Assembly (NCBI GenBank): GCA_964017235.1
Contig: OZ024929.1
Span: 21,511,464 to 21,575,463 of the forward strand
Length of the DNA stretch: 64,000 bases
Reading direction: 5' to 3'
From: Sabellastarte sp. h YS-2021
Lineage: Eukaryota; Annelida; Polychaeta; Sabellida; Sabellidae
A program made the translations under genes and the position numbers. Numbering within the stretch: position 1 is the stretch's first letter; each line of letters opens with the position of its first letter. Positions 3,624-60,720 of the stretch are shown one piece after another. Below the pieces are notes generated by a model. That model made no database searches. It saw only the letters and a program-made list of their open reading frames with translations, and was not told the origin of the DNA.

Positions 3624-5169
3624 GTGCCAGTGCAGTGCAGGTGGATCCTTCAGATAAGATGTGGCACTCACAACCTATCCATAAAGCTGCAGCTGAAGGA
3701 CATTTGAGTGTGGTCAAATTACTGGTATGGGCTGGTGTTCTTAATAGAATATCAATATTCAGCTTTTTGCATGGTCATGGTAAAAACAATCAAATACAAT
3801 GTCACATTATATTTTTTTAGAATCATGGTGTAAAAATCATGACCAACGAATGATTTCTAAAGAATAAAAGTAATTTCTTAAGAGAAATAGTGTTTGCTCT
3901 TATAGATCCATTATGTTAACCCCCCCCCCCCCCCCCCCCCATTAAAAGTAGAGTAGAGATGATAATATATAATCTTTTATCCTCCTGGGTGTCTCACCTA
4001 TGCAAAACCATTGCTAGTATTAGCCCAAATCTCCATTTGAATGGGAACAGAAACTGGAATGAAAGTAAATAAGACAATTTTCCTAAAAATCCCCTGAAAA
4101 GCTTAATATATGCTAAACAGTTAGAGAAAAGTTTAGAATGTCTTCATAATTATTGTATGTTTTTACTATTCTCAGTTGTTCCACCATGTATTAACAGTTC
4201 ATATCCACAATCGTGATTATGATATTTTAGTATTTCAATAAAATGGTTGTGATACCATCACAATCATTTCACCCATTGCTGAAAATGACCGTATCCCTAA
4301 CCACTTAAGTTTTTCTGCTGTTTTATATTCAGCTGAGCCGAGGTGTAGACATCAATACTCCTGACTTGGAATATCGTGCACCACTCCATCGGGCATCCAC
4401 CATGGGGCAGTTACATGTCGTCAAGTACCTGGTGGAGAATGGTTCCCCTGTAAATATTCTTCAAGCTGATGGCTTCACCTCGCTTCATGCCGCCACTTAT
4501 TTGGGTCACGTGGACACCTGTCGGTATTTGTTGTCTATGGGCGCAGACCTAAATCGTGCTGATGTAGATGGTTGGTCACCTTTGCATGCTGCGGTTTGTA
4601 ATAACCATTTGGATTTGGTCGATCTCTTCCTTACAGAGGGTGCTAGTCTTGGCCAAGTGACTCGGAGTGGATTCACAGCCCTCCATATGGCCGTTGAGGC
4701 GGGAAAGACAGTAATTGTGGAAAAGCTCGCCCTAGAGGGATCGCCGTTGGAGGTGAGAACTGCTCAAGGAAATACGCCCTTTTTTGAAAGCGTCTGGCGT
4801 AATCGCTATCCAGAAGCTCGATTTCTGGTTGATATGAACGTAGATCTCAACACGAGAAATTCCTCGGGTCTTTCCCCACTATATGTGGCTGTCTTGAGGG
4901 TCAAGGACAAATTTATACGGCTGTTAATAGAGGCAGGAGTGGACTTGCAGCAGGAGAACTGGTTACGAGAAGGCCAACTGCCAATTAGTTGGGCAGAGTT
5001 TCGGGAAGAGTACACATGGTTACAGGAACTGGTGAAACACCCTTGTAGTTTACAGTCTCTTTGCTGTAGTCAGATCAGGAAAGGGTTGAAAAAGCCCATT
5101 TCACAGAATGTGAGGAGGTTAAATATTCCCGGTAAATTAAAGGACACGATTGCACTCGTGCATGTGTGA
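3624..5169 (+). CDS. Ankyrin repeat and SOCS box (ASB-like) protein, 3' two exons
   Basis: Exons are 3624-3724 and 4333-5169 with stop TGA at 5167-5169. The donor GTATGG at 3725 and the acceptor TTCAG at 4328-4332 join in phase 0 and restore a continuous ankyrin helix. The first exon begins in split-codon phase, so at least one 5' exon with the start codon is missing. About 313 residues are visible: roughly seven ankyrin repeats (PIHKAAAEGHLSVVKLL, then PLHRASTMGQL, SLHAATYLGHV, PLHAAVCNNHL, ALHMAVEAGKT, and two more divergent ones) followed by a C-terminal SOCS box. The latter shows a BC-box-like SLQSLCCSQIRKGL and a Cul5-box-like LNIPGKLKDTI. By family knowledge, ASB proteins are substrate adaptors of cullin-5/elongin B/C ubiquitin ligases, with the ankyrin repeats binding substrate. 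The substrate cannot be told from sequence. Confidence 0.85.
3920..3940. repeat. Poly(C) tract, 21 bases
   Basis: Uninterrupted run of 21 C inside the ASB intron. One of four mononucleotide G/C runs longer than 20 in the window. Confidence 0.95.
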
Positions 5170-28941: not shown

Positions 28942-31906
28942 CTAATGAAACCCCCAGTTATCATATACATGAGACTGACTTCTCCCATGATTTTCCTCAT
29001 TACGCCTGAAACCAATCCTCCGGGGTTCCCTAGTAAATTCCATGCGTTCCACTAATCCAGCTGCATACAGATCCATGCTACCTCCGATTCCAGCCCCAGG
29101 CGCATAATGCCTTAAGTCTCCTGTTCGAGTATGTTCACTTGTACGTGAGTCACGACTAAAGTATGGCCATTTTGGTTTAGTGGCAGAAGCTCTGATATCA
29201 CCCGTGGATACATATCGAGGGTCACCAAGAACACTAGGATGCCTTGTGTCTGGATACATTGGTCTGAACATATCAGCATTGCCCTGTCTTAAATCTATAT
29301 TCTTGACATATATTGGATCCTTCTTGAGACTCTTGCTGTAAACTTTCCTTTCACGAATATCCTCTGGTCTTGCATATATCACATGATTGCCTTGATCCTC
29401 TCGGTCATCATAAGAATCTGGCGGTTTCTCTGGAACATGATTATTGTCTCCAGTATTGTTGTTTTCCTCTTCTTTGATATCCTGTAACTTGGAACCTTTG
29501 ATGTCACTACTTTTAGCATACAAGCTTTTAGACTTTTTACCTGATTGTAACTTAGAGATGACATCACCTGTCTTTCTGAAGAGGTTAAAGAAGGAGGATT
29601 TCTTAGACTTAGTCTGCGTACTCTTTGCAGATGTAACACTTGAGTCAAATGACTTCCAGCTTCCCGTGGGCTTTGAAGGCTCTTTATCCTTTTTTGAGCC
29701 CTTTTTCAGTTTGTGTTTCACCTCTGTACTTTTGATGTAGACAGGATCTAAAGCATCTAATGTGGAGTAAGTTCTTGATATTGTAGACATTCTCTTTTTC
29801 ACAGCATTGCTGGCAAACAATTCTGCCTGCTTTTGTCTAGTGACATACGGACACTCCTCAGGTTCCGATTCACAAGAACTACTCTCATTTCCGGCATATG
29901 ATGTACCTGGTGATGTTATGTTGTCAAAGCTAGATCCAGGACCTGGTGATTCCGGATCTGGAGAGCTGGATTCCTGATTGTTACTACCATAATCTGGTTC
30001 CGGCTCATGGTAAGGTATATCAGGTATAAAAACGTGCATGTCTGGATCAACACCATCAGCTGAAGGCATTGTAGTAGTAACAGCAGATGCCCTGACATCA
30101 TCTCTGACTGATTCTTGTCTCTGCACTTTGGATTTCTTACTACTCACAGTCTTGTGGCTGAAAAGGGACTTACTCTTCCAAGTGTTAGCTTGGCCCTTAT
30201 CCAATATTTGGCTTCCATGGAAGCTATCATCTGAGACCTTTGAAGTCCGCTTTTTGATTGTTTTCACCCTTGGTATACCAAAGTGTAAAAAACGCTTGAC
30301 ACCAAGTGAGGAGATATTGTCAACAGAAGCCGAGTATGTGAGCAGTGTCTTAGGATTCTCAGACGGATGGTCAGTTTTGTGTAGATAAGCATCCAAAGGC
30401 TCTACATCAACCTGTTTGATATATAATATATATATGATTATCAGTTTAAAAAATTTTGCACATGCAAATGAAATATTGGTATTATATTTGTCACTATTTC
30501 GCATGGCAAGTTACCATGTAGGTACAAGAATGGGCTATCTGCAATTCAATTATTGTAATTACCAGGATGACCAGTAGTGACCATAATTTATTTGTAGGAA
30601 TCTGTTATAAAAAGTATATGATTACATATAGTTGCTTAATGCCCATTTACAACAAATGACATTCTGGTATTGATCATTAAGCCAAAACTTCCTTTAAGAC
30701 AGGGACCCCATTTTGTTATTTGTATGTCGTGGCCAACAGCTTATGAAGGCATATTGCCTACAGATATACTCTTCAGCAGTGAACTGTACTTCATACAAGT
30801 TCCCATCTGCACTCAAAACAAAAAAGTATTATATTATTACAACAAAATGTACTTCCCTAATTATTTTCTGAAAAAGTTACATCACTACATTTAGGATAGG
30901 GTGATTGACTGATTGCAATGGCCCAGTGGTTAACCTGATTTGGGTTTGGCAAGTGCCTTAGAGTCTGTCATGATGACAAGTGCTGTAATAGTACTCGTTA
31001 CATTACATTTACCTTGCATGCCCCTCGACTTTCCTTATGATAAGGAGTTCCCACTGAGTTCCCCTTTGTGGGGAAGATATTGCGCCTGCAAATCATTAGA
31101 TTAGATTAGATTTAATGTATCTGCATACTTTAGCAGTTGTGGGGATAAAATAAAGCAGTGGATATACACTGGTACAGTGTCTGCACTGGAAAGCACTAGA
31201 CAGGGGCAAGCACCAATCCATTTCCTCTTTTAGCTCAGTGTCATATTTAAATTCAGCACTTGAGAGATGGGAGGCAAGTGTGTTGCCCTGAGGTTACTAA
31301 ATAGTCACGGAGTAATTACAGTATAGAAGTATAGTATACATTTTTATACTCAACATGCTATCTCCATGTGCTACAGGACTCGAACTATTTGATCCATCCC
31401 GATGTACAAGTACAGACCAACTTTTAAGTTACTGATATTCCCCTAACTGGAAGACAGAGGCTAAAGGATGACCATTTATCAATGTTCATAAAGTTATTTA
31501 ACCTGACACTGGGGATAGGACCCAATGACAGAGGACTGTCATTTTAAGTGATCATCCAAGCCACTATTTATCTGCCTGTACCTGGATTTGAACCGTCGTG
31601 CTCTGTGTTCTTAGGTGAGTGTTACCCACTAGGCCACAGTGGCAGACATAAGAGATATCTAATGTTCATTTAAGTCTTTCATTTCTCCTGTACAATTTTA
31701 ATGCTGTGACAACAATGATAACAACCATGAAACATGTGACCAGTCATCAGTGTACAATTTCTTACCTTATGCCTGCCTGTAAATAAGGAGGTGGCCAGCT
31801 GATCGTTAACATCAGACCTCCACTTCATCCAGAGATGGAGGTTCCTCTTCCTGGCATTCTGGAAGTCATTCTTGAAGGCGTCAGTATTCTTACTGCTGCA
31901 GGTCAT
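28942..31906 (-). CDS. Gene B: uncharacterised KWR/GIPR-block protein, two coding exons, 536 aa
   Basis: The coding exons are 31906-31766 (47 codons) and 30411-28942 (489 codons plus stop). The donor GTAAGA and acceptor AACAG join in phase 0. The ATG at 31904-31906 follows directly after an acceptor (TTACACAG), so a 5' UTR exon or further coding exon lies upstream. No known domain is recognised. Features: NLHLWMKWRSDVN at residues 22-34; FLHFGIPRVK at 88-97; a Ser/Pro/Glu-rich segment (about 163-235); a Lys/Ser-rich middle; then at least five spaced copies of a DP.Y(V/I)K..(D/E)(I/L)(R/K)-type motif (about residue 269 onward). The C terminus is HVYDNWGFH, whose YDNW could be a phosphotyrosine SH2 site. 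No signal peptide or membrane span is seen, so a cytoplasmic scaffold or a cytoplasmic tail is possible. Gene A, 8 kb away on the same strand, shares the two blocks. Confidence 0.75.
30900..31300. repeat. SINE and non-LTR tail fragments within gene B introns
   Basis: GGCCCAGTGGTTAAC and GTGCCTTAGAGTCTGT (30919-30975) resemble a tRNA-like head next to a CR1 tail. GGGAGGCAAGTGTGTTGCCC (31269-31288) is an inverted SINE A-type head. Too mutated to delimit. Confidence 0.35.
31500..31645 (-). mobile_element. tRNA-derived SINE of a third type (C)
   Basis: The - strand starts CTGCCACTGTGGCCTAGTGG and has the B-box-like GGTTCAAATCC. It continues into a body (AAATGACAGTCCTCTGTCAT, GGGTCCTATCCCCAGTGTC) unlike families A and B. 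It lies in the intron between the gene B exons. Confidence 0.55.
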
Positions 31907-32838
31907 CTGTGTAAATATTGCATGGACAAGTTCAGTGTAGCTTCATTTTGGACAGTCAAGGCAATGTTCGGGTTTTATGGTGAAGTTAATATCAGGAAAG
32001 ATCCCTATTTAATCCCAAATGTTACCATAAGAAGGCTTCTAACCTATAATCTAACAACTGAGTGTCAAATCATTAAATTCTAAACATGTTAACCACTAGA
32101 ACAGTAGTATTGCTTATGACGTACCTACCATATGGCATGACTTGGATATCAAAAGCCTATTTCTTCTCTGCTGTCTCTAGGGTTGCTTACCTTTTTATGT
32201 CTTATGATACATGAAACTGGATTTTGGTTTTGAAGAGTTTGCAACCAGGAGAGTATAAGGACTACTAAAGTTCAATAAAAATGAGACCATTGCAGCCTAT
32301 GTCAACAACTGAGATCACAATAAATGAACCGTCAGAATTTGTCCCATATTGGTATGAGCTAGGTTTCAACCCACTATCATAGAGGTGAGAGTGAAGTACC
32401 CACAAGACATATATGCACGCATAATATCATTAGTTTTCTGAAGACTCGAATTTAACTTTTTATCAACTTTCATTTCACCGATATTGAAAAGTTTTTGTTT
32501 CAGTGATAATTTCTGTACAACACAGTAGTAAAAAAAATCATCAAATAGTTAAACATTAGGAATGAAGAAACATTTTTCGATGCATTGCATATGACATAGT
32601 TGCGAAATTGGTTGATGGATCGAGTAATTTTAAATGATGCTACTTTTCACAAGAGATATCAAAACATGTTTATTCCCCCACCCCCTTCAAAATGCTTTTC
32701 AGGATGTTAAGAAAATCTAAATTATTTACCTCCTTTTGCAATTGCTTGTATTGTCAAAATATTAAACTTTTCACATGTTATGCTAATTTTGCAAATTACT
32801 TAATTGTTAAGTCATAAGCTATTCGGAATATGTATTAA
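31907..32838. other. Region 5' of gene B, no exon identified
   Basis: AT-rich sequence. Any upstream exon of gene B would be expected beyond this point; none was recognised. Confidence 0.4.
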
Positions 32839-33061
32839 GTAGTGGTGGTGGACCAGTTCACGCCCGGGTACCAATTCACGCCCACCCTCAATTTTCTTGA
32901 AGATTTATGATTTTTCATAGAGAAGATGTTTATCACATTATAGATAATCATCAAATTGATCATATACATTTGTAATTTATTGCTTAACTGTGATTGTTTT
33001 GGATAAATTTAGGGGTGGGCGTGAATTGGTACCCGGGCGTGAACTGGTCCACCACCACTAC
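32839..33061. mobile_element. 223 bp MITE with perfect 49 bp TIRs
   Basis: Arm 32839-32887 (starting GTAGTGGTGGTGGACCAG) is the exact reverse complement of 33013-33061. The arms are GC-rich (CACGCCCGGGTACC) and enclose a 125 bp AT-rich loop. Non-coding. Perfect arms imply a young copy. A short target duplication could not be decided because flank and arm end resemble each other. Confidence 0.92.
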
Positions 33062-33222
33062 AGACATATTTGATAATTTGATTGAGACCAAATAGGTTAG
33101 ATATATCTTCATTCCAGTATGATAATTGAGTGACATATAAAAAGCAGCCTTCATAATGATAGTAAATCTGACATTACACATTTTAAATATCAAAGTACTT
33201 TGTACATGTACTTACTTTTCAG

Positions 33223-33370
33223 ATGTCATTGGCTACCATGACTTTGTTTTGGGTCCTTGTGTGGCATATTACAAAAACTACCGGCCAGTATCCTTGCTGT
33301 GCAGTACATTATTATCACATTCCGAGGCCGTTCCACCCCATTTCACTGAGAGATGTGAAAACATCAAGAG
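33223..33370 (+). CDS. Candidate internal exon, 148 bp, unrecognised product
   Basis: An acceptor TTACTTTTCAG (AG at 33221-33222) and a donor GTAATTG at 33371 bracket the only open frame, which encodes VIGYHDFVLGPCVAYYKNY and ends FTERCENIKR. It enters with two bases of a split codon and leaves in phase 2. No family is recognised. It lies on the opposite strand from genes A and B, so it would be part of an interleaved gene. Its phase does not fit directly with the next candidate exon at 42341. It could be a chance frame. Confidence 0.3.
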
Positions 33371-35289
33371 GTAATTGAAGTTACCTTTTAAACATATATC
33401 ATTGATCTATGTCATTCTTTTAAATATAAGTTGTGTCATCCTTTAAATGTGTAAAATGTTGACATTTAATTATCTACTGTGTAACTTTTTCTTCACATGT
33501 TCCACCCTATCTTTTTCACTCTTGAATGTTCACTCAAGCCATATGTGTACATATGCAATAGAAGAACAGATATATATATACATAAAATAGTTTCTATTGT
33601 TTGGTTTTTATGTGTAACTTCCAATTGTTGAAGTTTATAACTTCCCCTTATAAATTCCCATATAATAAAAGGCTTAGGTCAAGTAGGTAAAATAGAAGAC
33701 ATTTTGAATCTCGAATGCTTACTACTCGCCGGAAACCCCTCTTTACATTTTAACAAATATAGTAACTGTTTTAAATTAAGTTACTTTTTCAATTTCGAGA
33801 AAGTTGAGCTTTATTAATATTTTTCTACATAGCGGAAATATTAAAAGACTTGCAGTACCATCATATTAATTATCATATTTGATAAAAGTACATCTGTCAT
33901 GGGTTGTGATTTGTACTTTATGAAGCCTGCTTTGATACTCTGGAGCAAATTGTTAGCACTTTACTGTGCCCTTGTAACATAAAGGTACAGTGGCTATATC
34001 ATTATAATAGAAATTATTCATTTGTCAACGGACCAATTTCAGAAGGGTGTGTGTTGGGGGAATGTGTAATGAAAAAACCTCAGAAACATGAGTAGTTTTA
34101 TATGGTTTGAAGATACCAGACTTACAAGGGGGGCAGAATTAACATTGGTATGAAGATATCTACAGATGGGTGTACATCAACCAAATATGTCACTGTTAAG
34201 AATTTTTGCCATTTGGGAAATTGTGGAGAATGTGTATTGACCATAAACTTGTTTTCAACTCCATAAAACGTATTAAAACACAACATTATTTTATCTAGAT
34301 TTAAATATGTTTGGAAGCTAAAACCATGATTCGGTTGGTTGAATTTAAAGAAGTGGGTACTGACAAGAAATGTAAACATTTCAATCTTTTAATAGGCAGA
34401 TACAGAGTTATTTATAGTTTTCTTCAGATTTGGGTTAAAATATATAACACTACCAAGGCTAATTCTCACTTTTATTTGTCAGTCCGCCTGACGTATTTGA
34501 AGATTCAAAAGCATATGACAAAGTAAATGTCCAATCATTTAACCTAATTAACCTAAACATGTCAAGTAATTCCAGCCTGGTTATCTGACCACAGTTGCCA
34601 TACTTTAACAGCTGACTAACTATTCTGTCAAATTTGAATACTATTCTCACAAAGAGTGAGCTTTTGCAAAGAGATAAGTTTTCAACTTGTTTCTGAACGA
34701 GGAGAGAGTCATGTAAATTGTATTGGTATTTTATGATATAGGGCAAATTATAGTCCTTTATAGACAGAAGAACCCTATTTATTAAAATTTCACTGTAATT
34801 AGCATAGTGATGGTTATCTTTTATTAAATTGAAGGGAAAATGATAATTTTACAGAAAAAGTGTATTTAATCATGGTCATGAAAACTACATGGAATAGCCT
34901 GAAAAGAAAGCCTCAACCTGACTCATAACTTTTTGAAGAACCAAGGTCATTCAATTTATGTGAAACAAAATCATGTTTCGACACAGGTAAACAAGAGGGT
35001 GGAACATTTTTTATTGAATCACTTCTGTCACGATACAAGGGCTTGTCACTCGTTTTCATACATGATTCAAACTGAATCCACAAAAGTAGGTTTCTTATGT
35101 AATTCAGTATCTTGGGGTCAATACTCACAGTCACAAATATTTTTTTAGATCATTCTTATTCTTTGAATTTTCAAAGAGGACTTGTGCAATTCCTTAAAAA
35201 ACATTCCTTAATCTGTTTGTCTGTATGTTTGTCAGTGTTCAACATTACTTGAAAAGGTTTGAACAGATTGTTCAGTATCAGAACAGTAT
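33371..35289. other. AT-rich non-coding stretch
   Basis: No exon, repeat or RNA signal strong enough to name. Short open frames here lack splice context. Confidence 0.5.
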
Positions 35290-35690
35290 CATATTTAACT
35301 AGCAAGCACTCGGAAAGCTCAAACCTCTGCCAAGCAGTTCACGTCCACACCATTTTTCCTGTTCTGGATCAGAGTATCCAGAATGTTTGCTTGTATCCAG
35401 ATCAAAGTTAGGTACGTTGTGGACACTTCTGTGTATCCTGCAGTATCCTGCATTTTTGCAAAGCAATCTGACAAATCATTATAATAAAAGGTCTTTCAAA
35501 ATACGTTGATCCAGATCACTACCTCAATCAAATCATCCGTTCCATCTGCCATGGTTGACATTTCCCGACAGTCTCGCCAAAATCCATATTTAACTTTTTG
35601 AGTGATTCTGCAAATAGACGGACGGACAAAAAATATCCAATGTTGCCAAAGCCATATCTTTTTGGCAGAGGTAAAGATCAATCATATCAT
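35290..35690 (-). repeat. Dispersed repeat (CTGCCAAAAAGATATGG type)
   Basis: AGCACTCGGAAAGCTCAAAC and CCTCTGCCAAGC on the left, and GACGGACGGACAAAAAATAT and TTTGGCAGAGG on the right, are typical of a repeat seen in other marine invertebrates. The left and right ends contain CCTCTGCCAA/TTGGCAGAGG in inverted orientation, so it may be a TIR element. Related blocks occur at 38640-38910 and 47100-47350. Confidence 0.45.
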
Positions 35691-36273
35691 GACAGGCAGT
35701 TCAGAGGGCTGAGGAATGCTGTCATATAAGGCAATCCAAATCTGTAACATTTGAAATATAGGTATTTGAACATTTTCATGGCAAGTAAAAAGTTTCAAAA
35801 CCAAATTATGTAATGTTTCTGTGCTTATGTTCAACAAAACTCATACCATTATATCCATACCCACATCCAATATTGTCAGATATTTTATTATTTTGGATCA
35901 TATCAATAATGTAAATTTTGGCCTTTTTGCGACAGAATAAGAGTCACATGAAACAGCTGTGAAAGGGGTGGGTGGTATTTTTTTATTATTTAAAAAAAAC
36001 ACCCAATAATCTGTTAAGATTAAATGTCAATTGGTTGCTGTCTTGAGAGAGCCCGTAGAACTTTAAAAGAGGAAAAACCATCCCTTTTTTCTCAAAATCG
36101 ATTGTTGCAAAAGTTATGCAATTATTGGGTACATAGCTAATACGCATCTCCCCCCACACAAATACAATGTGAAAATAATAATGTTTATGCATAACTTATT
36201 CTTTTCATTCATAACACATAGCTTTTATGTATCATACAACATTTTTGCCACTCTTTTCCTGGTACAATCAAAA

Positions 36274-36425
36274 GGTCCTCAGTGACCTAGTGGTTGGCAA
36301 GTTTGGCATCTGATCACAGGCAGATACCTCTGTGTGGGTTTGGTACACACAAGTGGTAATACTGAAGTTCTGTCCCAATATGACCCTGGCTGTTGACCGG
36401 GACATAAAACCCCAACTTCGGCTAC
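36274..36425 (+). mobile_element. SINE family B, copy 3
   Basis: The head GGTCCTCAGTGACCTAGTGG, B-box-like TGGGTTTGGTACACAC, and body TCTGTCCCAATATGACCCTG and GGGACATAAAACCCCAAC match the - strand copies at 8385 and 12415. Confidence 0.7.
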
Positions 36426-36659
36426 ATTTCCCCCATTCTTTCCCCTGGAATCATTTCTGCCAGGGACACAAGTTTAAAATCAGCAATGTCTTACGATTGA
36501 TCGTGAAAGTGCTGCATATTCCTGCATACCACAGGTGTATGCCCAACATTTGTGTCCTGTTACAAAACAAGGTGAAAATTTTGTTAAAAAAAGCCCATCT
36601 TTATATCTGTCAACTGATTTGGCAACTATAAGTGTGGAATATTAATATTTAATTATCAT

Positions 36660-37275
36660 CAGAACTGTTTGATAAGAGAAATGTCATCCCGAAATGCTAC
36701 AAGGCTCCAATATGTTCAAAATGCTCTTGCACGGTTTGTCACTGGTGCTTCAAAGTACACTCACATTACATCCACCCTTAGGACACTTCATTGGCTACCC
36801 ATTAGACAACGTATTATCTTCAAAACCCTAGTTTTGGTTTGTAAGTACCTCACCACTGGCCAGCCTAAGTATTTTGCACCATATCTCCCCTTGTACAAAT
36901 CTGCTGTGAATACAAGACGTTCCAATCCCAAAAATTTGTTCCTTCAGGTTCCCTCTTACTGTGCTTCCATCCATAAATCTAAGGTCCATTTTAACAATAG
37001 TTTTTCATATGATGTCCCTAAGTTATATAATGATCTTCCATATGATATACGCAGTGCTCCAAATCTCTCCAGTTTCAAAAGTCGACTCAAAACCTACCTA
37101 TTTCAGAAATCATTCCCTCCATAGCTTCTTACTACCGAACACCGGACGACCTCTCTGGGAACGACTCGGAACATGTCTAATGTCTTATGACTTATGCCTT
37201 ATGAATTGGATGGTGTGCCTTAGAATCCATTGATACGGAGATTAAGCATGTGGACAACTGATTGATTGATTGAAG
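36660..37275 (+). pseudogene. Non-LTR retrotransposon C-terminal fragment (CR1-like)
   Basis: An open frame of 151 codons (36669-37124) reads LQYVQNALARFVTG, LHWLPIRQRIIFK, and near the end LYNDLPYDIRSAPNLSSFKS then LKTYLFQ. This is the typical region after the RT domain of CR1-like elements. The 3' tail has GTGCCTTAGAATCC and ends in a TGATTGATTGATTGA microsatellite (37259-37274), as such tails do. It is 5'-truncated, with no RT core. This is the best-preserved of the three non-LTR fragments. Confidence 0.88.
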
Positions 37276-39594
37276 AGAGAATTTTTTCTAACTGGACATA
37301 CAAATTATTAACAAAACACTGTTATTAAACTATTTATTGTGCTTCAAGAATGTACATAAATAAGAAGTGAAAAAGATTCATTACTTTATATATTGAGTCA
37401 TATGTATAGAAGCCAGTCAAGTGTCAATAATACCAGTAACAAGAACTATAGAATATTACTAATTACTAATACTGTTAGATTATAACATCTGTCAACACCT
37501 AACAATGTAATCACTGTGGGTATACTGTTAGCACTATGAATCACTCGTGTCTTTCACATCAATACGTACATGCATAACCGTTTCAAAATAAGTCTATATG
37601 GATACATTATTTACTGTTAATGATAAGAATGGTAACTAGAAGGCACTCGTAGAGTCCACACTTTCACCAAGGCAGCTGAGCATGCCCAAATCATATTTAC
37701 ATCCAAATACTCCTTTTTATTTTGACCCTCATAATCAGATAGGATGACCATGATGGAAATCATTGTAAATGGGACTATTGGAAATTTTTTTACCCAGCAG
37801 AAAATTTACATCCTTCCCAAAATTTAATCACTTTGTCCTTTGGTCAGGTCTTATCCAAATATATAAAAAAATAAAGATGTTTTCATTAGTTTCAGAGTAG
37901 TCAGAAACACAGCCAGAGAAACATACACATCCAAAAAACTTAATCTGCCTGGTGGAGATAATTATGTTTATATCTAAACAAAACACTTCTCCCCTCTATA
38001 ATTGGCACAACTGGAGCACAGAATCACTGTGTAATCCTTATGTAACTCTGTGTGGATGGTTTAGTGCCAAGTGCCACACATAGATATATTCAAAAGAAAA
38101 ACACATCAAATCACTGTAAAGAGTACCTATTAATAGGTGATAATATCATTCTAATAATTGTACGCAGTGCTCTAAATTGGTACATGACAGACATACAGAT
38201 TACGACTAATTATTTTTACACCAACAATCCAGATTTGTTGAAGATGGTTTGCACACTGAAGTCTATAAAACATTACAAATCATATAACTATAGATAGAAG
38301 GCACGTTTCAGTACAATTTTGTAGATTATTGTACATTATTGTATATGTAGATGAATGTATTGTTTTACTCGTTATAATATTCTGCAAGTGGAGGTTTATG
38401 CAGATATTACAGTCTTTACATCTTTGCACAAATAATGTTATTGGTATAGTTATTCTATTAATTTTCATCAAACAAAGCATGACATAACAGCTTTCACCAT
38501 CATCCAACACTACAATCTAGCAGTATACACATGCTATGCTTTATGTTGTGTTTATTGAACATTTCCCTGTTGTATCTATGGATATTGAAATAAATATGCA
38601 CTGCAGAGTTTTAATTATTTTAATTATTGCTGTTGTCCTCAGTGAAAGAGGTTATGTCATTGGCAAGGGTGTCTGTCTGCCTGTCTGCAATATCACTGAA
38701 AATGTTATGAATGGATTCTGATGAAATTTTAAGGTAATGTCAACAATAGCACAAGAAACAGGTAATTAATTGTTGGTGCTGATCTGGATCACTGCCTGGA
38801 TCCAGGAATTTTTAAAATAATATTTACCATTGTACTCATAAGCAATACTTGTGGTGTTGGACCTTGGCGGACTTATGTGTTCCCTGAGTGCTCTTGCTAA
38901 ACAGTTAATGACATTTTTATTCATAAATATAATTTATTTGAAATTCAGCCATTGTGTATCTAAACTACCTTAAATATATCGTGAAAATCAAATCCTATTG
39001 AGATTCTTTGTCTAATGCTAATATAGGTATCAGTTAATATTACTACATACAAACTGCATTAAAATTGATCACTAACATATTTCTGATTTTTACACTGGGT
39101 TAGCTATGAATCATAATGAGTTACATTTTACTCTACTCTTTATTTAGTATTTTTGAATTTATTGTACAGTTTATCTTAAAGTTATACAAACTGATACACA
39201 TTACACTGACAGGTATTTGTTAAACAAATTCCTCAGAACATGATGATGTAAAGTTAGTGACATGTATCAGACATTTTACACAGATGTCCTAATATACAAA
39301 CACAATGAAGAATCATAACCAATGAGAATGTACATTCATGATAAACAACAGATATACATAAAAATTAACAAAACAATCACTAAGAGTTAACAATTCAAGC
39401 ACCAGCAGCGTTTATATAAATCATATAACAAGACCAAATCAAATAACCATCAACACACTATAATGTATCATCAACTGCACATCTCCATTTTAGCTACAAA
39501 TATTTTTAGTCAACAGGATTGATTACGTATCAGATTTTGGATGAAAGTGTAACCATTCCCTGAAACAGGTGATTTATGTGGTATGCCTAAAATT
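37276..39594. other. Intergenic sequence, no gene seen
   Basis: AT-rich throughout. It contains a dispersed-repeat copy at 38640-38910 but no coding exon. Confidence 0.45.
38640..38910 (+). repeat. Dispersed repeat, copy related to 47100-47350
   Basis: GTCTGTCTGCCTGTCTGCAA, GAATGGATTCTGATGAAATT, GTCAACAATAGCACAAG and CTTGGCGGACTTATG...GAGTGCTCTTGCT occur in the same order at 47100-47350 (GTGAACGGATTTTAATGAAT, GTCAACAGTGGTACAAGGA, CTTGGCGGATGCC...CAGTGCTCTTG). Confidence 0.65.
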
Positions 39595-39935
39595 TGAAGA
39601 ATAAAACTAGTCTAAGTGGTACATGGGTAGGTAATAGTGCTTATGTAGGTCTAAGTGGTACATCTGTTCCAAATGGCATAATGGGTCCCAGTGGTATGGT
39701 AGGTAACAGTGGTGTGAGAGGTCTTATTACTGGTCTAATTGATATGGCTGGTCCAAGTGGTTTGCCTAATTGACGGGGTATGGTCTAAGTCTGGTAAGGC
39801 ATGCCCAACTGGTATGGCAGGTCCAAGTTATATTTTTGGTCTGTGTGGTATAGCTGCTAAAGGTGGTATGGAAGATCTAAGTGGTATGGTTAACTGATAT
39901 GACATAGGTAGTCCAAGTGGCACAGGCAGAGCTGA
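39595..39935. repeat. Degenerate GGTCYAAGTGGTATGG repeat just 3' of gene A
   Basis: More than ten imperfect copies of a 16-30 bp unit (GGTCTAAGTGGTACAT, GGTCCCAGTGGTATGG, GGTCCAAGTGGTTTGC, GGTCCAAGTTATATTT, GATCTAAGTGGTATGG). On the - strand the unit would read I-P-L-G-P, the same words that end gene A's coding frame (GGCCAAGTGGTATGG at 40098-40113). Stops occur between units in gene A's frame. Confidence 0.8.
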
Positions 39936-40063
39936 AAGTGTTGGGTTTTATACTACATGATCCAGATATACATTTTTTAGCTTCATTTATAATTATTTTG
40001 TTATATTTCATGTTGTCGTTCAAACAGTAAAACACTAGTTTCATGAAGAGTATTGCAAAACCT

Positions 40064-41272
40064 CTATGACAATGGTTCACCATTTCCTATGCCAGGTGGG
40101 CCAAGTGGTATGGCCGGCCCCATTGGTATTGGAGGGGCTGGAGGTGGCGGAGGTGGTGGTGGTGGTGGTAACACCAGTACAGGCTGGTAATCCCCTGTGT
40201 TGTTGGCAAACACCTTACGTAAAGATTCAGGGATGTTATTTCCATGCTTATCCTTGGGCATTTCTTCATAGTTAGGTGTTTTTTCTGTGGGACCATTTTT
40301 GTTTTCATCACTTGCAACATCTTGAGTTGTGCTTCCCGCATTCATTCTGGGACTGTAATCAGTTCTGGGGGTAATCTCAATATTTGTGTCTATCCTTTCA
40401 TCATCGAGGTACAGTTGGTTTTCTGCAAACAACTGACTTTCATCCCTCTCTTCATTATCAGTAATATCCATGTTCTCAGCAGAATCCTTCTTTTCAGTTG
40501 GTAACCCTTCTGACTTTATCATATTCACATCAATCTTAGCTCGTGGTATCCCGTAGGCCAGAAAGTCTTTAGGTGATAGATCGGTGGCATTGTTTGTAGC
40601 AAGGGAATAACTCATGATGTAAGTAGGATCTCCGTGTACTTTGGTGTCTTTTTTAAGGCTCACATATCCATCGCTGGTTCTGGCTAGACGTCCAAGTGAA
40701 TGATCATGTACATCATCATCACGTGCTTTGATCACATCCTTAATGATTGTTCCATTCATCTGAGTCCTCCATTTTCCCCACTCAAACAGATTCTGATCAC
40801 TCCTGTCAGTGGGTACTTTTGGATTTGTCACCTTTGGCTCCTTGTCTATGTTTTCCTGCCTTGGCTCCCAGGTATATTCATTGGGGTTTCTGGGTGGTGG
40901 GTTCTGCTTTTCATATCCTCTGTAATATTGTTCTGGCTGTCTCCCCCGGTATTCCTCATGTGTATATCCTCTCTTCACCTCACCAGACTGGGCATAAGCA
41001 CTCTCAACCTGAGGTATCCACTGCTGTTCAATGTATTTGTTCCTGTTGGTAGTTTGCTCTCTATACACATGGTCTCTGGGTTTTCTTGTTAATGGAACGT
41101 CCTCTTTATAGACATGGTCTCTGGGTTTTCTTGTTAAGGGCACTTCCTCTTTATACACATGGTCTCTTAGTTTTCTTGGTAATTGAGCCTCCTCTCTATA
41201 CATTTGGTCTCTGGGCTTTCTTGGTGATGGAGCTCTTGGTCGAGTTTGGGTCTTTCGATAGTACCTATCCAT
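40064..41272 (-). CDS. Gene A: uncharacterised KWR/GIPR-block protein with Tyr and Pro repeats, 402 aa
   Basis: The single coding exon starts just after an acceptor (TGTTTCAG, exon start 41278) with ATG at 41270-41272 and ends with TAG at 40064-40066. Two in-frame codons precede the ATG, so upstream coding exons are not excluded. No known domain is recognised. From the N terminus: four exact 15-residue repeats, RK(P/L)RD(H/Q)(V/M)Y(K/R)E, with tyrosines at 25, 40, 55 and 70; a Tyr/Gln/Arg-rich segment (93-135); NLFEWGKWRTQMN at 161-173; GDPTYIMSYS (214-223); FLAYGIPRAK (237-246); an acidic middle; and a C-terminal run of ten prolines followed by PMGPAIPLGP. No signal peptide or transmembrane span is seen. 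The two blocks and their spacing (74 residues between KWR and GIPR, 64 in gene B) mark it as a paralogue of gene B. Repeated tyrosines and polyproline suggest a phosphorylation-dependent or SH3/WW/EVH1-binding scaffold; that is inference. Confidence 0.75.
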   Translation of the reverse strand: MDRYYRKTQTRPRAPSPRKPRDQMYREEAQLPRKLRDHVYKEEVPLTRKPRDHVYKEDVPLTRKPRDHVYREQTTNRNKYIEQQWIPQVESAYAQSGEVKRGYTHEEYRGRQPEQYYRGYEKQNPPPRNPNEYTWEPRQENIDKEPKVTNPKVPTDRSDQNLFEWGKWRTQMNGTIIKDVIKARDDDVHDHSLGRLARTSDGYVSLKKDTKVHGDPTYIMSYSLATNNATDLSPKDFLAYGIPRAKIDVNMIKSEGLPTEKKDSAENMDITDNEERDESQLFAENQLYLDDERIDTNIEITPRTDYSPRMNAGSTTQDVASDENKNGPTEKTPNYEEMPKDKHGNNIPESLRKVFANNTGDYQPVLVLPPPPPPPPPPAPPIPMGPAIPLGPPGIGNGEPLS

Positions 41273-41278
41273 GATGAT

Positions 41279-42340: not shown

Positions 42341-42446
42341 GTAAACTCAGGATGAAGTATGGGCTGCAGAAGGATGGTCCTTGCTGGCAATGCAAGCAAG
42401 AAACCTATACAAATGAAGAAAGACTGACAGAAGACATTGTGTATAG
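42341..42446 (+). CDS. Candidate internal exon, 106 bp, unrecognised Cys-containing product
   Basis: A pyrimidine-rich tract with acceptor CCATTAG (AG 42339-42340) and a strong donor ATAG/GTCAGTG (GT at 42447) enclose the sole open frame. It reads KLRMKYGLQKDGPCWQCKQE and ends TEDIVYR. The other two frames have stops within the first few codons. It contains a CWQC pair, which could be half of a metal site. No family recognised. It lies on the + strand, opposite gene A, so it would belong to an interleaved gene. Splice context is better than for 33223-33370. Confidence 0.4.
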
Positions 42447-43243
42447 GTCAGTGAAATGACATTAAATAACTCATAAAGCTTACTTAGCTGCTCAATAGAT
42501 TTCCTTGTATCCAATGATATGTCCACGATGCCTGGTTCAGTAGAGTCCAAATGCTTTCACATATTAAGTTTCTTTGTCGTGGGCAAACCTCTATATCTCC
42601 TATTTAGTATTATTGCACGATATATATACAGTACATATCAATGAATTTTGTTATACTTTGAATATGCGTGTATTATTTTGTGAATTGAAGTTTCCCCTAA
42701 ATATAATACATCATGAAACATGTTTACATTCATTTATCTCTTATTCCTCCTTCATGTATTTTAGCATACAGTATATTTCCTCATGTAATTAGTTGTAACT
42801 TCTTCACTTTTTTTCTGCTTCTGAGAATATTGTATCATTTGCAATATCCACCACATTATACGTTAACTTTTCCTCATATGCATACACCAAATAACGATTT
42901 CATGCAGGGAATGTGCAGTATAATACAGTGGTTTACATATTAGGGTTGCATTGACTCTATTTGATTAATATGTTAGTATGTGTTTATATATGTGTACATA
43001 GGCGATCAATGGCTACAGGTATGGTTGTTTCAAGTCTTCTTATACCATAAATGCATAATATCGACAAAAAATGTCACTCTTTTGGAGAAGAGGACAATAT
43101 GTAGAGTATACTTAGTAAACAATAAAAAAACTAAACTGGCTTGTTTTTCCAAGGCTGTGGCCAAGTCTGTCAAATGTTGTGCACGGTCTAACGCCTTTTA
43201 TTTTACAAACTGGATTTGTTAGTAAACAAGGACACAGTGAACC
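42447..43243. other. AT-rich sequence, no gene seen
   Basis: Several short open frames without splice context. No repeat recognised. Confidence 0.45.
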
Positions 43244-44555: not shown

Positions 44556-46645
44556 GCCCACCAGGCACAAGACGTCATTTCGATATCAATGATTGGTCTA
44601 AACTGGGACCTGATGTCATTTTGATAGCATAATGATATCTAGACATTATTTGATGGAAACAGACCTGTTGGTCATTACATATGATGTCAGTTTGACATCA
44701 TTTAATTGCACAAAATCTGATGTTATTCTCTCCACATCATATTGATGTCATTGTGCCATCAGATTAATGTACCCCATAAGTTGGTAATTCTTTTTGACTA
44801 ATTCAAACTTCCCCTATATTTTTTCTCTTTGTCTAAGTAATGTCACTGTTACATCATGAAGTTCATAGATGTTTTTTTTACTTTAACATTTCTTGACACA
44901 TCATTTTGATGTCATTATTAACACTTATTTCTCATATCTAACATACAGTCTGTTTGAGTTATATATTTATGTGTAACATCAATCCCAATTGTCAGTCAAT
45001 CCCAATTGATTAATCACTAATCACTGAAAAGAATTTTGATCACTTCCAGATTTTACCTACTACCAAAAATTTACAAAAAGGACATCAGTGGCAGACAAAT
45101 TTGCAGTACTACAAACCACCCCCACTTTTTGAATAAGTAAATATAAAAAAATAAATGGCAGGAGCACCCCCTTAGATCAAGGACACTACTGACTTTTTGT
45201 AACAACTGTAACTAATACCAGCATTACCATAGCATTGCTCGTAACCCTTGATGCAACTTTGTCATATGCAAACATTCAAAAGGAAGAAGGCCTTAGGGTA
45301 GAAAATTACCAATGAAGGGACCCTAAAATGATCAAACATAGACTGTGTACATAATGAAGCTTATGAGATTAGTATTACAAAATACAAACTTCACTTTTAT
45401 TTATTTATTTCACTTTTAAAAGCAAATAACCATCAATTTGTGTTTAAAATATGTTAAATTGAAGTTAAATACTTGAAATACTGCAACAATAGACTGGATA
45501 TATACTCCAGTCTCCAGGTAATTAAAATTTCTAGTTATTGGTGGCAATTACAGGCTATAATAGACAGGTGGGGTCATTTTCTTGTTTACAGTCATTCAAG
45601 TATTAGGTTGATCGACCTGTGATTGTTAACTTTTCTCACATGCATGATAAAGTGCATTTGAGATGTAGTGGCACTGATGTTTTGTTGTGTAATTGCTGTG
45701 TATGAAGTGTACTAAAAGTACCAATAAATTTTTATTCACATTCCTGTTTATCACTCTCTGTAGATACCACTGGGAAACTGATGCCAATTCTTTATTATAC
45801 ACAATTCCTTATTTAATAATTTAATTTTATGTTATTTGAATAAAATTTAATTAATTTAAAATTTAATTTATTATCCACCACACATTGTATTTGACCAGTA
45901 TAGAGGGTTATACTGACTGGGATATATTTCATTTGTATACAACGGCACCTCAATCACTTCCAGTTTTTCACCAATATCTCAGAAACTGTGTTACCTACAA
46001 ATATGTATTATATATCATGATAAAGGTCTTCTTACAGTGCTTCTACTCATGTATGTTACATAAAAATTCATGTAGAAATGACTGAGATATTGCAGGTTAA
46101 AGATTGCAGTTGTTATATTCACTGGTACCCATGATGCTTTTTGACATCCTTTTTAAAATTCTCTCATCAAATATTCATACTATTGAACCCATAAATCGTA
46201 CAGAATAGTGGATAATAAAAGTAAAAAACCATCCCTCATCAGACATATCAAAATATATCAATCAAAAATATTAACAATATAAGTTTTCTTCATTGTGATA
46301 TATTTTTTATGTATATGTGATTGGGGAAGTTTTCCTATTGTGATGAAACTGTTCCCAAAAGGACATATATAATTTTGGGTGGATTTGAAACTTTAAATTA
46401 CTTACAGTTTGGATGTCATAAAAATTTAATTTTGATATAATGTATGATATCATTTAGAGGTCCCAAAAAAGATGTCATTTTGATGTCTTGAAAATAATGT
46501 TTCTTTGATGTCATGATAATGATGTCATTTTGATGTCGTGAAAATGATGTCATTAGAACTTTCAAACCAAATCAAAAAAAGACAGTTTATTGACATCGGG
46601 CCCGTTGTCATTTTGATGTCAAAATGATGTAACTTTGCCCACTGG
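44556..46645. mobile_element. ~2.1 kb element with GATGTCATTTT subterminal repeats
   Basis: The left end CCCACCAGGCACAAGACGTC is mirrored, with mismatches, by the right end GATGTAACTTTGCCCACTGG. Both ends are followed inward by degenerate repeats of GATGTCATTTTGATGTCA (44570-44960 and 46430-46632). No transposase reading frame is visible. A second element (45868-46345) lies inside and a SINE abuts the right end. Confidence 0.65.
45868..46345. mobile_element. Element with TTTATTATCCACC ends, nested copy
   Basis: TTTATTATCCACCA near 45868-45881 is mirrored by GTGGATAATAAAAG near 46208-46221. The sequence between, and ~120 bp beyond, matches 48368-48790 in order (AATGACTGAGATATTG, AAAGATTGCAGTT, CCATGATGCTTTTTGACAT, CATCAGACATAT, GGGAAGTTTTCCTATTGTG). 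Confidence 0.65.
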
Positions 46646-58701: not shown

Positions 58702-60720
58702 GAAATAGTTGGTCTATTTGGGGAAGAATTTCCTTTCACTGGGTTGGCTGCATTGTTGACACTGATTCTCCCCTGTCTTGTAAGGAGCTACGTCCAACAA
58801 GAATGCAAAGTTGAACACAAGCGCAAACAGGCATCATCAAAAAGAATACAGTATCACACCCTCCTGCTGGAAATAAACAGAGGCCTTTCTTTGGAAGTCA
58901 TTGAGGAGCATCAGACAAAGCTTACTGGTCAACTGTGTACATTCTCGGCATGTAATGATGTGGACATTGAACTTGAAGACAAGAACCTTGTTGTTACTAT
59001 AGATGGAAGTATATCACTAACAATAAAACATTCGTTGGATGGTCAAGTGCATTGTTATGAGTTCTTTTGGGAGAGTTCATCATCCACAGTATGGTACTGT
59101 GGGACTCTTGAAGACTCTTTCCAAATGCTGGATTCTCACTGGTATGGGTTAGGCCATGTCTTCTGTCACCATTGGCCAATGGAAAAGTGGAATACAACTA
59201 AGGGTCCTATGGTGACTGGGGAATCAGGACCATTTCCAATTATGTCATCCACCTACTATGGGGGCATTCAAGAAAGGTTGCTCTTCAGTTCTACGGGTGT
59301 TGGTATTCATGTGGATCAAGATGTACCTTTGTTTGTTTCTGTTAACAGCAATAATGACGGCCTTTTAAAAGTTTACTCTTCTTTTAAGGGTCCTTATCAC
59401 AACTCTACAGGAAGAAATCTGTTTTTGAAATACCATCTCTGCCAAACCAGCAATATTAAAGAATTATGGCTTTACATGCACAAAAAGTTTCTGCAGAATC
59501 CCATATCCATTCCAAATGAAATAACATTTACAAAACCTGTATGGTCTACTTGGGCGGAGTATAAAACTGGTGTCAATGAAAGTAAAGTCCTGAAACTTGT
59601 TGAAGAAATAGAGTGTCATGGTTTCCCTTGTTCTCATGTAGAGATAGATGATGATTGGACTCCCCATTATGGTGATAATGTAGTGGACACTCACAAGTTT
59701 CCAAATATGAAAACACTGGTCACAGTAACAAAGAAAAAGGGCTACAATCTATCTCTATGGATCCATCCATATGTAAGCTTGTTTTCAAAAACTTTTTTGA
59801 AATATTGGAAGAAGGGTCTTCTGGTGAAAGGATACTGCAGTTTACCTGCAGTCTTCTCATGGTGGAATGGTTATGCTGGTCTGATAGATATCACAAATGA
59901 GCAAGCCAGAGATGACTATAATAGTGACTTGGAGCAGCTAAAACAGACTTATGGTATAAGCTCATTCAAATTTGATGCTGGTGAAGGCTGTCAGCTGTCC
60001 AGAAGCTCCAAATTGTGTCATCCAGTGAGTTCACCAAATGCTTACAGTCACCTGTTTGCTGAATTTGCTTACAATAGTGACAAGGAATGCTTGATGCAGG
60101 AAATCAGAGTGGCCTATAGGAACCAAAACCTGCCTATATGGTTTAGACTACAGGATAAGGACTCCAACTGGGGCTATTTTAATGGCATCAGAACTGTCAT
60201 TCCACATGTGCTCACACTAGGCTTACTTGGCTATCCATTTGTTCTTCCTGATATGATTGGTGGAAATGCATATTCGGGAAAACCTGATCGCGAGCTGTAC
60301 ATTAGATGGGTACAACTCAATGCCCTCATGCCAGCTATGCAGTTTTCTCTCGTTCCCTGGAAGTATGATCCAGAGGTTATAGTTATAGCACGAAGAATGT
60401 GTGAATTACACAGACAGTTTGCGCAGACAATTATTGAATTGGCAAGAGAAGCTACAGTTACCGGTGCACCTATTATTCGCCCCCTCTGGTGGATTGCCCC
60501 ATTGGATGAAGTGGCTCTTACAATTGATGATGAATTCTTATTAGGAGATGATGTACTAGTAGCACCTGTATTGGAGAGGGATGTCAGATTCAGGGATATT
60601 TATTTGCCATGTGGAGAATGGAAAGATGAAATATCTCAGGAAACATTTGAAGGTGGACAATGGATTAAGAATTATTACACCGGTTTGGCTGATCTACCAC
60701 ATTTTTCACGAATGAAGTAA
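58702..60720 (+). CDS. MYORG-like: MYORG-like GH31 glycosidase, large 3' exon
   Basis: The open frame begins right after an acceptor (TTTTGTAG, AG 58700-58701), starting EIVGLFGEEF, and runs 672 codons to TAA at 60718-60720. There is no ATG near the beginning, so one or more 5' exons with the start codon are missing. A hydrophobic stretch (FTGLAALLTLILPCLVRSY) near the N terminus may be part of a signal anchor. Colinear with human MYORG: HWYGLGH...HWPM, VWSTWAEYKTGVNESKVL, HVEIDDDWTPHYGD, WIHP, and SSFKFDAGEG with the GH31 nucleophile Asp at 59974-59976. FRLQDKDSNWGY follows, which by homology holds the acid/base Asp (60154-60162), then LGYPFVLPDMIGGNA and PAMQFSLVPWKYD. Both catalytic regions are intact, so activity is expected. 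Human MYORG is an ER-lumenal alpha-galactosidase; N-glycosylation sequons (NTT, NST, NES) fit a lumenal protein. Confidence 0.93.
   Translation, partial: EIVGLFGEEFPFTGLAALLTLILPCLVRSYVQQECKVEHKRKQASSKRIQYHTLLLEINRGLSLEVIEEHQTKLTGQLCTFSACNDVDIELEDKNLVVTIDGSISLTIKHSLDGQVHCYEFFWESSSSTVWYCGTLEDSFQMLDSHWYGLGHVFCHHWPMEKWNTTKGPMVTGESGPFPIMSSTYYGGIQERLLFSSTGVGIHVDQDVPLFVSVNSNNDGLLKVYSSFKGPYHNSTGRNLFLKYHLCQTSNIKELWLYMHKKFLQNPISIPNEITFTKPVWSTWAEYKTGVNESKVLKLVEEIECHGFPCSHVEIDDDWTPHYGDNVVDTHKFPNMKTLVTVTKKKGYNLSLWIHPYVSLFSKTFLKYWKKGLLVKGYCSLPAVFSWWNGYAGLIDITNEQARDDYNSDLEQLKQTYGISSFKFDAGEGCQLSRSSKLCHPVSSPNAYSHLFAEFAYNSDKECLMQEIRVAYRNQNLPIWFRLQDKDSNWGYFNGIRTVIPHVLTLGLLGYPFVLPDMIGGNAYSGKPDRELYIRWVQLNALMPAMQFSLVPWKYDPEVIVIARRMCELHRQFAQTIIELAREATVTGAPIIRPLWWIAPLDEVALTIDDEFLLGDDVLVAPVLERDVRFRDIYLPCGEWKDEISQETFEGGQWIKNYYTGLADLPHFSRMK

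Follow-up and report, generated by a model that had tools for sequence, protein, structure and literature searches.

Introduction

Two neighbouring genes in a 64,000-nucleotide stretch of genomic DNA (hereafter the window, i.e., the whole stretch that was analysed) encode proteins sharing two short sequence blocks in the same order. This raises the question of whether the two genes, designated here A and B, descend from one ancestral gene or resemble each other by chance, whether the shared stretch belongs to a known or a wider protein family, and what role it might play in both proteins. In this work, these questions are addressed through gene models, alignment statistics, family, structure and genome searches, and structure prediction, and the results are integrated into a conditional proposal on the origin and function of the pair.

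Results

Gene models and surroundings

Genes A and B are neighbours located about 8.2 kb apart on the minus strand, and their features are collected in Table 1. The two coding exons recognised in A give a predicted spliced product of 536 aa; in the first of them the ATG immediately follows the acceptor (TTTACACAG/ATG), and the exon ends at a strong donor (CATAAG/GTAAGA). Because this first recognised ATG lies directly on an acceptor, A may have additional 5' coding exons upstream, and the splicing and 5' ends of both genes are given here as predictions read from the DNA. Stop-free stretches cover 522 codons in A exon 2 and 417 codons in B, with open frames of 489 and 402 codons, respectively; in 30 copies of the window generated by a first-order Markov model, none exceeded 180. 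The longest stop-free stretch between A and B measures 168 aa, and the first AATAAA, a possible poly-A signal, is found 901 bases past the B stop.

Table 1. Features of genes A and B, with their coordinates in the window.
Feature	Position	Strand	Description	Basis
Gene A, first recognised coding exon	31766-31906	(-)	MTCSSKN...; carries the NLxxWxKWR block	direct reading
Gene A, intron	30412-31765	(-)	GT-AG, phase 0, 1354 bases; separates the two blocks	direct reading
Gene A, second coding exon	28942-30411	(-)	YS...FLHFGIPRVK block, then tyrosine-motif tail; stop TAG	
Gene B, sole coding exon	40064-41272	(-)	402 aa, stop TAG; acceptor six bases 5' of the ATG	
Shared domain in A, part 1	31766-31846	(-)	NLHLWMKWRSDVN...	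alignment with B
Shared domain in A, part 2	30262-30411	(-)	...TYSASVDNISSLGVKRFLHFGIPRVK	alignment with B
Shared domain in B	40535-40795	(-)	NLFEWGKWRTQMN...SYSLATNNATDLSPKDFLAYGIPRAK	alignment with A; no intron
B, 45-base in-frame repeat	41057-41231	(-)	3.9 copies, RKPRDHVYKEEVPLT, N terminus	
B, proline-rich C terminus	40067-40168	(-)	polyproline run, then IPMGPAIPLGPP	

One alternative to two separate genes is that A and B are alternative terminal exons of a single gene with common 5' exons, in which a duplicated exon swaps the tail. Such an arrangement would agree with the acceptor present at the first recognised coding exon of both A and B, with the ATG 0 or 6 bases behind it, with the phase 0 in which an upstream exon could be read into either of them, and with their common strand and the lack of any stop-free stretch above 168 aa between them; however, the two lie about 8.2 kb apart, possible poly-A signals are found behind B, and inspection short of a systematic search identified no shared 5' exon. 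We regard this arrangement as very unlikely, and A and B are treated below as two paralogous genes.

Several other features were observed in the window. On the plus strand, ankyrin repeats followed by a SOCS box (4309-5169; Pfam Ank and SOCS_box) constitute what we take to be an ASB-type gene, and a glycoside hydrolase family 31 gene occupies one long open stretch (58702-60720; Pfam GH31 barrel and C-terminal domain). An open stretch of 168 aa on the same strand (36618-37124) gave no Pfam match at E 0.01 and resembles, in our assumption, the end of a LINE reverse transcriptase. Between A and B, an inverted repeat at 32839-33061, whose arms of 57 bases are 95% complementary and separated by 109 bases, may represent a foldback transposable element of small size. 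An opposite-strand sequence lying some 1 kb upstream of B was noted by eye as a possible exon (42343-42449, plus strand, with acceptor TTAG and donor GTCAGT), and its 36-residue reading had no Pfam match at E 1; further on, a tandem array of a 25-base unit, ATGATGTCATTTTGATGTCATGAAA, extends over 4.4 copies (46444-46554). Lastly, a candidate join of B to A through the one donor-like site noted by eye near the end of B (TTAC/GTAAGG, around 40217) would be out of frame with the A exon.

A collinear stretch of about 80 residues is shared by A and B

A and B have in common one collinear stretch of about 80 residues, in which NLxxWxKWRxxxN is followed by YSx4N...L..K.FLx[FY]GIPRxK. The KWR element starts at residue 28 in A and 167 in B, and GIPR at residues 92 and 241, respectively, giving distances of 64 and 74 residues and a spacer of different length, which is split by an intron in A only. 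The second block aligns without gaps over 23 residues, from YS to GIPR. Both blocks thus occur in identical order within one protein in B and, via the inferred splice, in A.

Domain against domain (pieces of 115 residues), the BLOSUM62 local score with gap costs of 11/1 was 96, a value reached by none of 2000 shuffles (mean 28.0, sd 4.9, maximum 53), and with gap costs of 8/1 it was 105, compared with 34.4 ± 6.9 for the shuffles (maximum 75). Whole A against whole B scored 109 at 11/1 (shuffles 48.2 ± 7.4, maximum 88) and 136 at 8/1, the latter being reached by 1 of 2000 shuffles, whose maximum was 151. BLASTP on the single A-B domain pair gave E 2e-8 with 27 identities over 87 positions (31%), and the local score of the reversed-sequence control was 21. 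Outside the domain, the comparison of A with B remained within chance, with scores of 52 and 86 that 408/2000 and 264/2000 shuffles, respectively, equalled or exceeded. When partners were sought among the 223 stretches of the window that run for 60 aa or more without a stop, the best one for the A domain, besides A's own two exons, was B (96; next 40), and the best ones for the B domain, besides B, were the two exons of A (72 and 47; next 39).

Chance or convergence in biased sequence would be compatible with the abundance of charged and small residues in both proteins, with an identity of only 31% in the shared stretch, and with the fact that mutual matches of A and B in genome-wide searches reached only E 0.11 and 1.41 and were absent with the long B query. 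Against this, not one shuffle attained the observed domain score, the reversed control fell far below it, and two strict block patterns coincide genome-wide only at A and B (see below). We consider chance or convergence extremely improbable; rather, A and B very probably share common ancestry, as judged from sequence comparison.

An earlier note on this DNA had placed A and B on the same strand 8 kb apart and described NL..W.KWR...N followed, at 64-74 residues, by the GIPR block, in agreement with the layout found here. It had further argued for a duplicated ancestral domain instead of chance, and for proteins otherwise unalignable; the shuffles and the collinearity, limited to about 80 residues, sustain the first of these claims, and the chance-level scores of the remaining sequence the second. 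Its statement that the blocks lie just downstream of a splice acceptor is wrong for B, where the acceptor precedes them by about 480 to 730 bases.

Searches of known families and databases

Pfam-A searches up to E 10 gave no match for A exon 2, spliced A, B or either domain alone. NCBIfam returned nothing for B and no significant match for A exon 2, whose only match (E 0.09) covers 40 positions of a 550-position enzyme model and is far below its cut-off. The PDB, searched by sequence, contained no match for the A domain or for the two-row A/B profile, and three matches for B at E 0.51-1.2; two of these, to the hydratases ChsH2 and ChsH1, fall on the second block of B and were taken as chance. 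No relative was found in viral and prokaryote contig collections (0/64 and 0/34 pattern matches confirmed), and literature searched by general words yielded no paper tied to such a domain, a result from which absence from print is not claimed.

These results bear on the view that the shared stretch belongs to a known domain but has diverged too far for profiles to detect it, with the pair working as that family does. A profile built from only two sequences has a short reach, which leaves room for this view; nevertheless, the lack of Pfam matches up to E 10 for all forms of query and the PDB results, in which the A domain and the two-row profile had no match and B only matches at E 0.51-1.2, speak against it, and we consider it unlikely.

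Search for further members in the genome

The genome assembly from which the window derives (1,785,957,881 bases, 647 contigs) was searched both by protein and by DNA pattern. With the A domain as protein query, 150 of 2077 candidates were scored; three of these correspond to the two exons of A (E 2e-38 and 1e-25) and to B (E 0.11), the latter being the top non-self match, ahead of the remaining 147 places that were scored. The homology would have escaped notice from this search alone. The other 147 matches, with E values of 0.22 and above and falling mostly over query residues 24-83, were taken as chance; the three that were read (L005, L007 and L015) are versions of one repeated sequence, presumably resembling a retroelement reverse transcriptase. 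The second block of B, used as query, recovered B itself and, as the sole other place, A at E 1.41. Only self-matches were obtained with B lacking its last 34 residues (up to E 10, A being missed), with the last 268 residues of A (up to E 1) and with the B domain (E 0.001 cut-off).

Across the whole genome, the strict DNA pattern for FLx[FY]GIPR gave 13 matches versus 11 for its control; four of the 13 truly encode the motif (A, B, L024 and L029), three carry a correctly spaced N (A, B and L024), and two a correctly spaced YS (A and B). The strict pattern for NLxxWxKWR gave 18 matches versus 7 for the control, of which 11 encode KWR and six have N four residues on (A, B, L042, L045, L048 and L054), L054 containing internal stops. 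Near-alike readings around N..FW.KWR, with stops 16-24 residues on, were found on different contigs at L042, L045, L048 and L056, which are probably one dispersed repeat whose likeness to the first block was taken as chance. Short frames alone are insufficient to discard these four, A's own exon being also short, and their membership is better excluded by the lack of a second-block match within 16 Mb. Except in B, no GxPR was present within 1.5 kb downstream of first-block matches, a check that is blind to introns as long as that of A, where the blocks lie 1549 bases apart. The two strict pattern lists coincide at A and at B (225 bases apart in the latter) only, and the next nearest pair of both blocks on one contig is separated by 16.7 Mb. 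No other two-block place emerged within the window when both proteins were run through tblastn and motifs were scanned in six frames.

Taken together, the protein and strict pattern searches revealed no convincing further member in this genome at a limited sensitivity, as a member as distant as A is from B would show weakly or not at all, and strict patterns could miss diverged members. At the sensitivity reached, the KWR and GIPR blocks would define a two-gene family within their own genome.

In the same assembly, contig C647, which is 15,345 bases long, can be read as a mitochondrial genome using the invertebrate code, with cox1, cox2, cox3 and nad3 on one strand and nad4, nad5, atp6, nad6, cob and nad2 on the other; cox1 alone was named by family search and the remaining genes by reading, and an ARAGORN run with the bacterial code returned no tRNA. 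A scaphopod origin was considered: in the dentaliid Pictodentalium, cox1, nad2, cytb, nad3 and atp6 share a strand (PMC9859601), which is not the arrangement seen in C647, so that a dentaliid is unlikely; gadilids are described in that paper as entirely different.

Protein anatomy and predicted structure

No transmembrane-like span was detected in either protein, the maximum 19-residue mean hydropathy being 0.78 in A and 0.44 in B. An AlphaFold2 model of the B domain (123 residues), with the two exon pieces of A as extra rows, had a mean pLDDT of 38.4 and displayed helices at residues 19-45 (first block) and 95-100 (before GIPR) and two short strands (57-60 and 63-66); only residues 94-101, about eight around the second helix, reached a pLDDT of 50. 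Modelled alone, full-length B (402 aa) had a mean pLDDT of 44.6 and helices at 79-82, 161-182, 234-239 and 349-356, of which the second and third sit at the two blocks. Ten-residue pLDDT means were 32-37 over 161-190, among the worst parts of this model, and 39 over 231-240, the best pLDDT (87) being located on the polyproline tail. For the first block, the hydrophobic moment takes modest values (0.21 and 0.27), and neither protein has it among its highest. As weak evidence, these models are consistent with a mostly disordered chain that may contain two helical blocks, bearing in mind that low pLDDT from so few rows does not amount to proof of disorder.

The tail of A contains five Y-x4-[DE][ILV][RK] motifs, at residues 272, 345, 393, 415 and 447; in shuffles of A their mean number was 0.056 and 0/20000 reached five, a significance that is overstated, as the motif was written after inspecting A. 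In B a single site is present (residue 93), and at least one was found in 1426/20000 B shuffles; this single site is therefore no evidence of a shared third element. Past the B stop, at 39600-40063 (-), IPLGP-like coding repeats recur in a stop-broken form (LGKPLGPAISIRP...TIPLGPIMPFG), which would fit either a formerly longer proline-rich tail or its continuation via an unrecognised 3' intron.

Short helical blocks, disordered linkers and basic repeats are common in proteins of cilia and the cytoskeleton. The pair could accordingly be pictured as structural components, e.g., filament- or microtubule-binding proteins, to which the architecture would lend itself, with what may be short helices along extended chains modelled at low confidence, and with Lys/Arg-rich repeats in B; yet no PDB chain, axonemal proteins being included among them, gave a significant sequence match to B, the A domain or the two-row profile. 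We hold a structural role to be quite unlikely, and the adaptor reading developed below is preferred.

Discussion

The present evidence supports a modest but solid conclusion, namely that a pair of duplicated genes has one conserved stretch in common. It bears differently on three further claims of the earlier note: that no named domain could be recognised is borne out by the Pfam, NCBIfam and PDB-sequence searches, none of which gave a significant match; the proposed protein family holds as a real pair, and lacks a convincing third member in its own genome at limited sensitivity; and the notion of an undescribed system goes beyond the evidence, which yields a duplicated gene pair only.

With regard to origin and function, we propose that A and B would be paralogues arising from tandem duplication of one gene, in which selection may have kept the bipartite stretch of about 80 residues, i.e., a probable helix at NLxxWxKWRxxxN, a variable spacer and a short helix ending in GIPR.K. 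This stretch would serve as a module for binding, folding on a partner common to A and B, and the remainder of both proteins, presumably disordered, would have diverged into different docking tails, made of tyrosine-centred repeats in A and of RKPRDHVYKEEV repeats plus a polyproline tail in B. Polyproline tails are typical ligands of SH3, WW, EVH1 or profilin. A and B might then act as adaptors in the cytoplasm, each delivering its own clients to one shared partner; one retained module with rebuilt tails fits adaptors having a common partner and different clients, as inferred from architecture. We rate this proposal as a whole, i.e., tandem-duplicate adaptors with a shared binding module and diverged docking tails, at slightly less than an even chance, an estimate that covers all of its parts and is lowered by the adaptor mechanism relative to common ancestry alone. 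More tentatively, the two blocks may represent a novel domain of animals or of lophotrochozoans, folding only when bound to its partner and carried by a fast-evolving tandem pair whose tails were rebuilt from different repeats as the module stayed fixed; we regard this as possible and rather doubtful. Should the module be found across animals, it would provide a name and a handle for two otherwise unreadable genes, and perhaps for uncharacterised orthologues.

Among known systems, clade-specific uncharacterised genes of molluscs have been reported in a nudibranch study (PMC10795318), and A and B resemble them in being open genes without a recognised domain, and differ in that clade-specificity is not claimed for A and B. 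A possible architectural likeness is offered by the large docking adaptors of the IRS, DOK and GAB type, in which, as may hold for our pair, a short conserved module is combined with repeated tyrosine motifs (putatively, the A tail) or proline-rich ligands (B). These adaptors have a PH and/or PTB domain, a short conserved module, and a long tail with tyrosine motifs or proline-rich ligands. In contrast, neither A nor B has a Pfam match to PH, PTB or SH2 domains, and the five putative docking tyrosine motifs of A do not imply their phosphorylation. Proline-rich scaffold proteins, for their part, carry polyproline ligands; although Pfam detects no EVH1, WH1, SH3 or WW domain in B, the end of this protein, a proline run followed by IPMGPAIPLGPP, resembles them.
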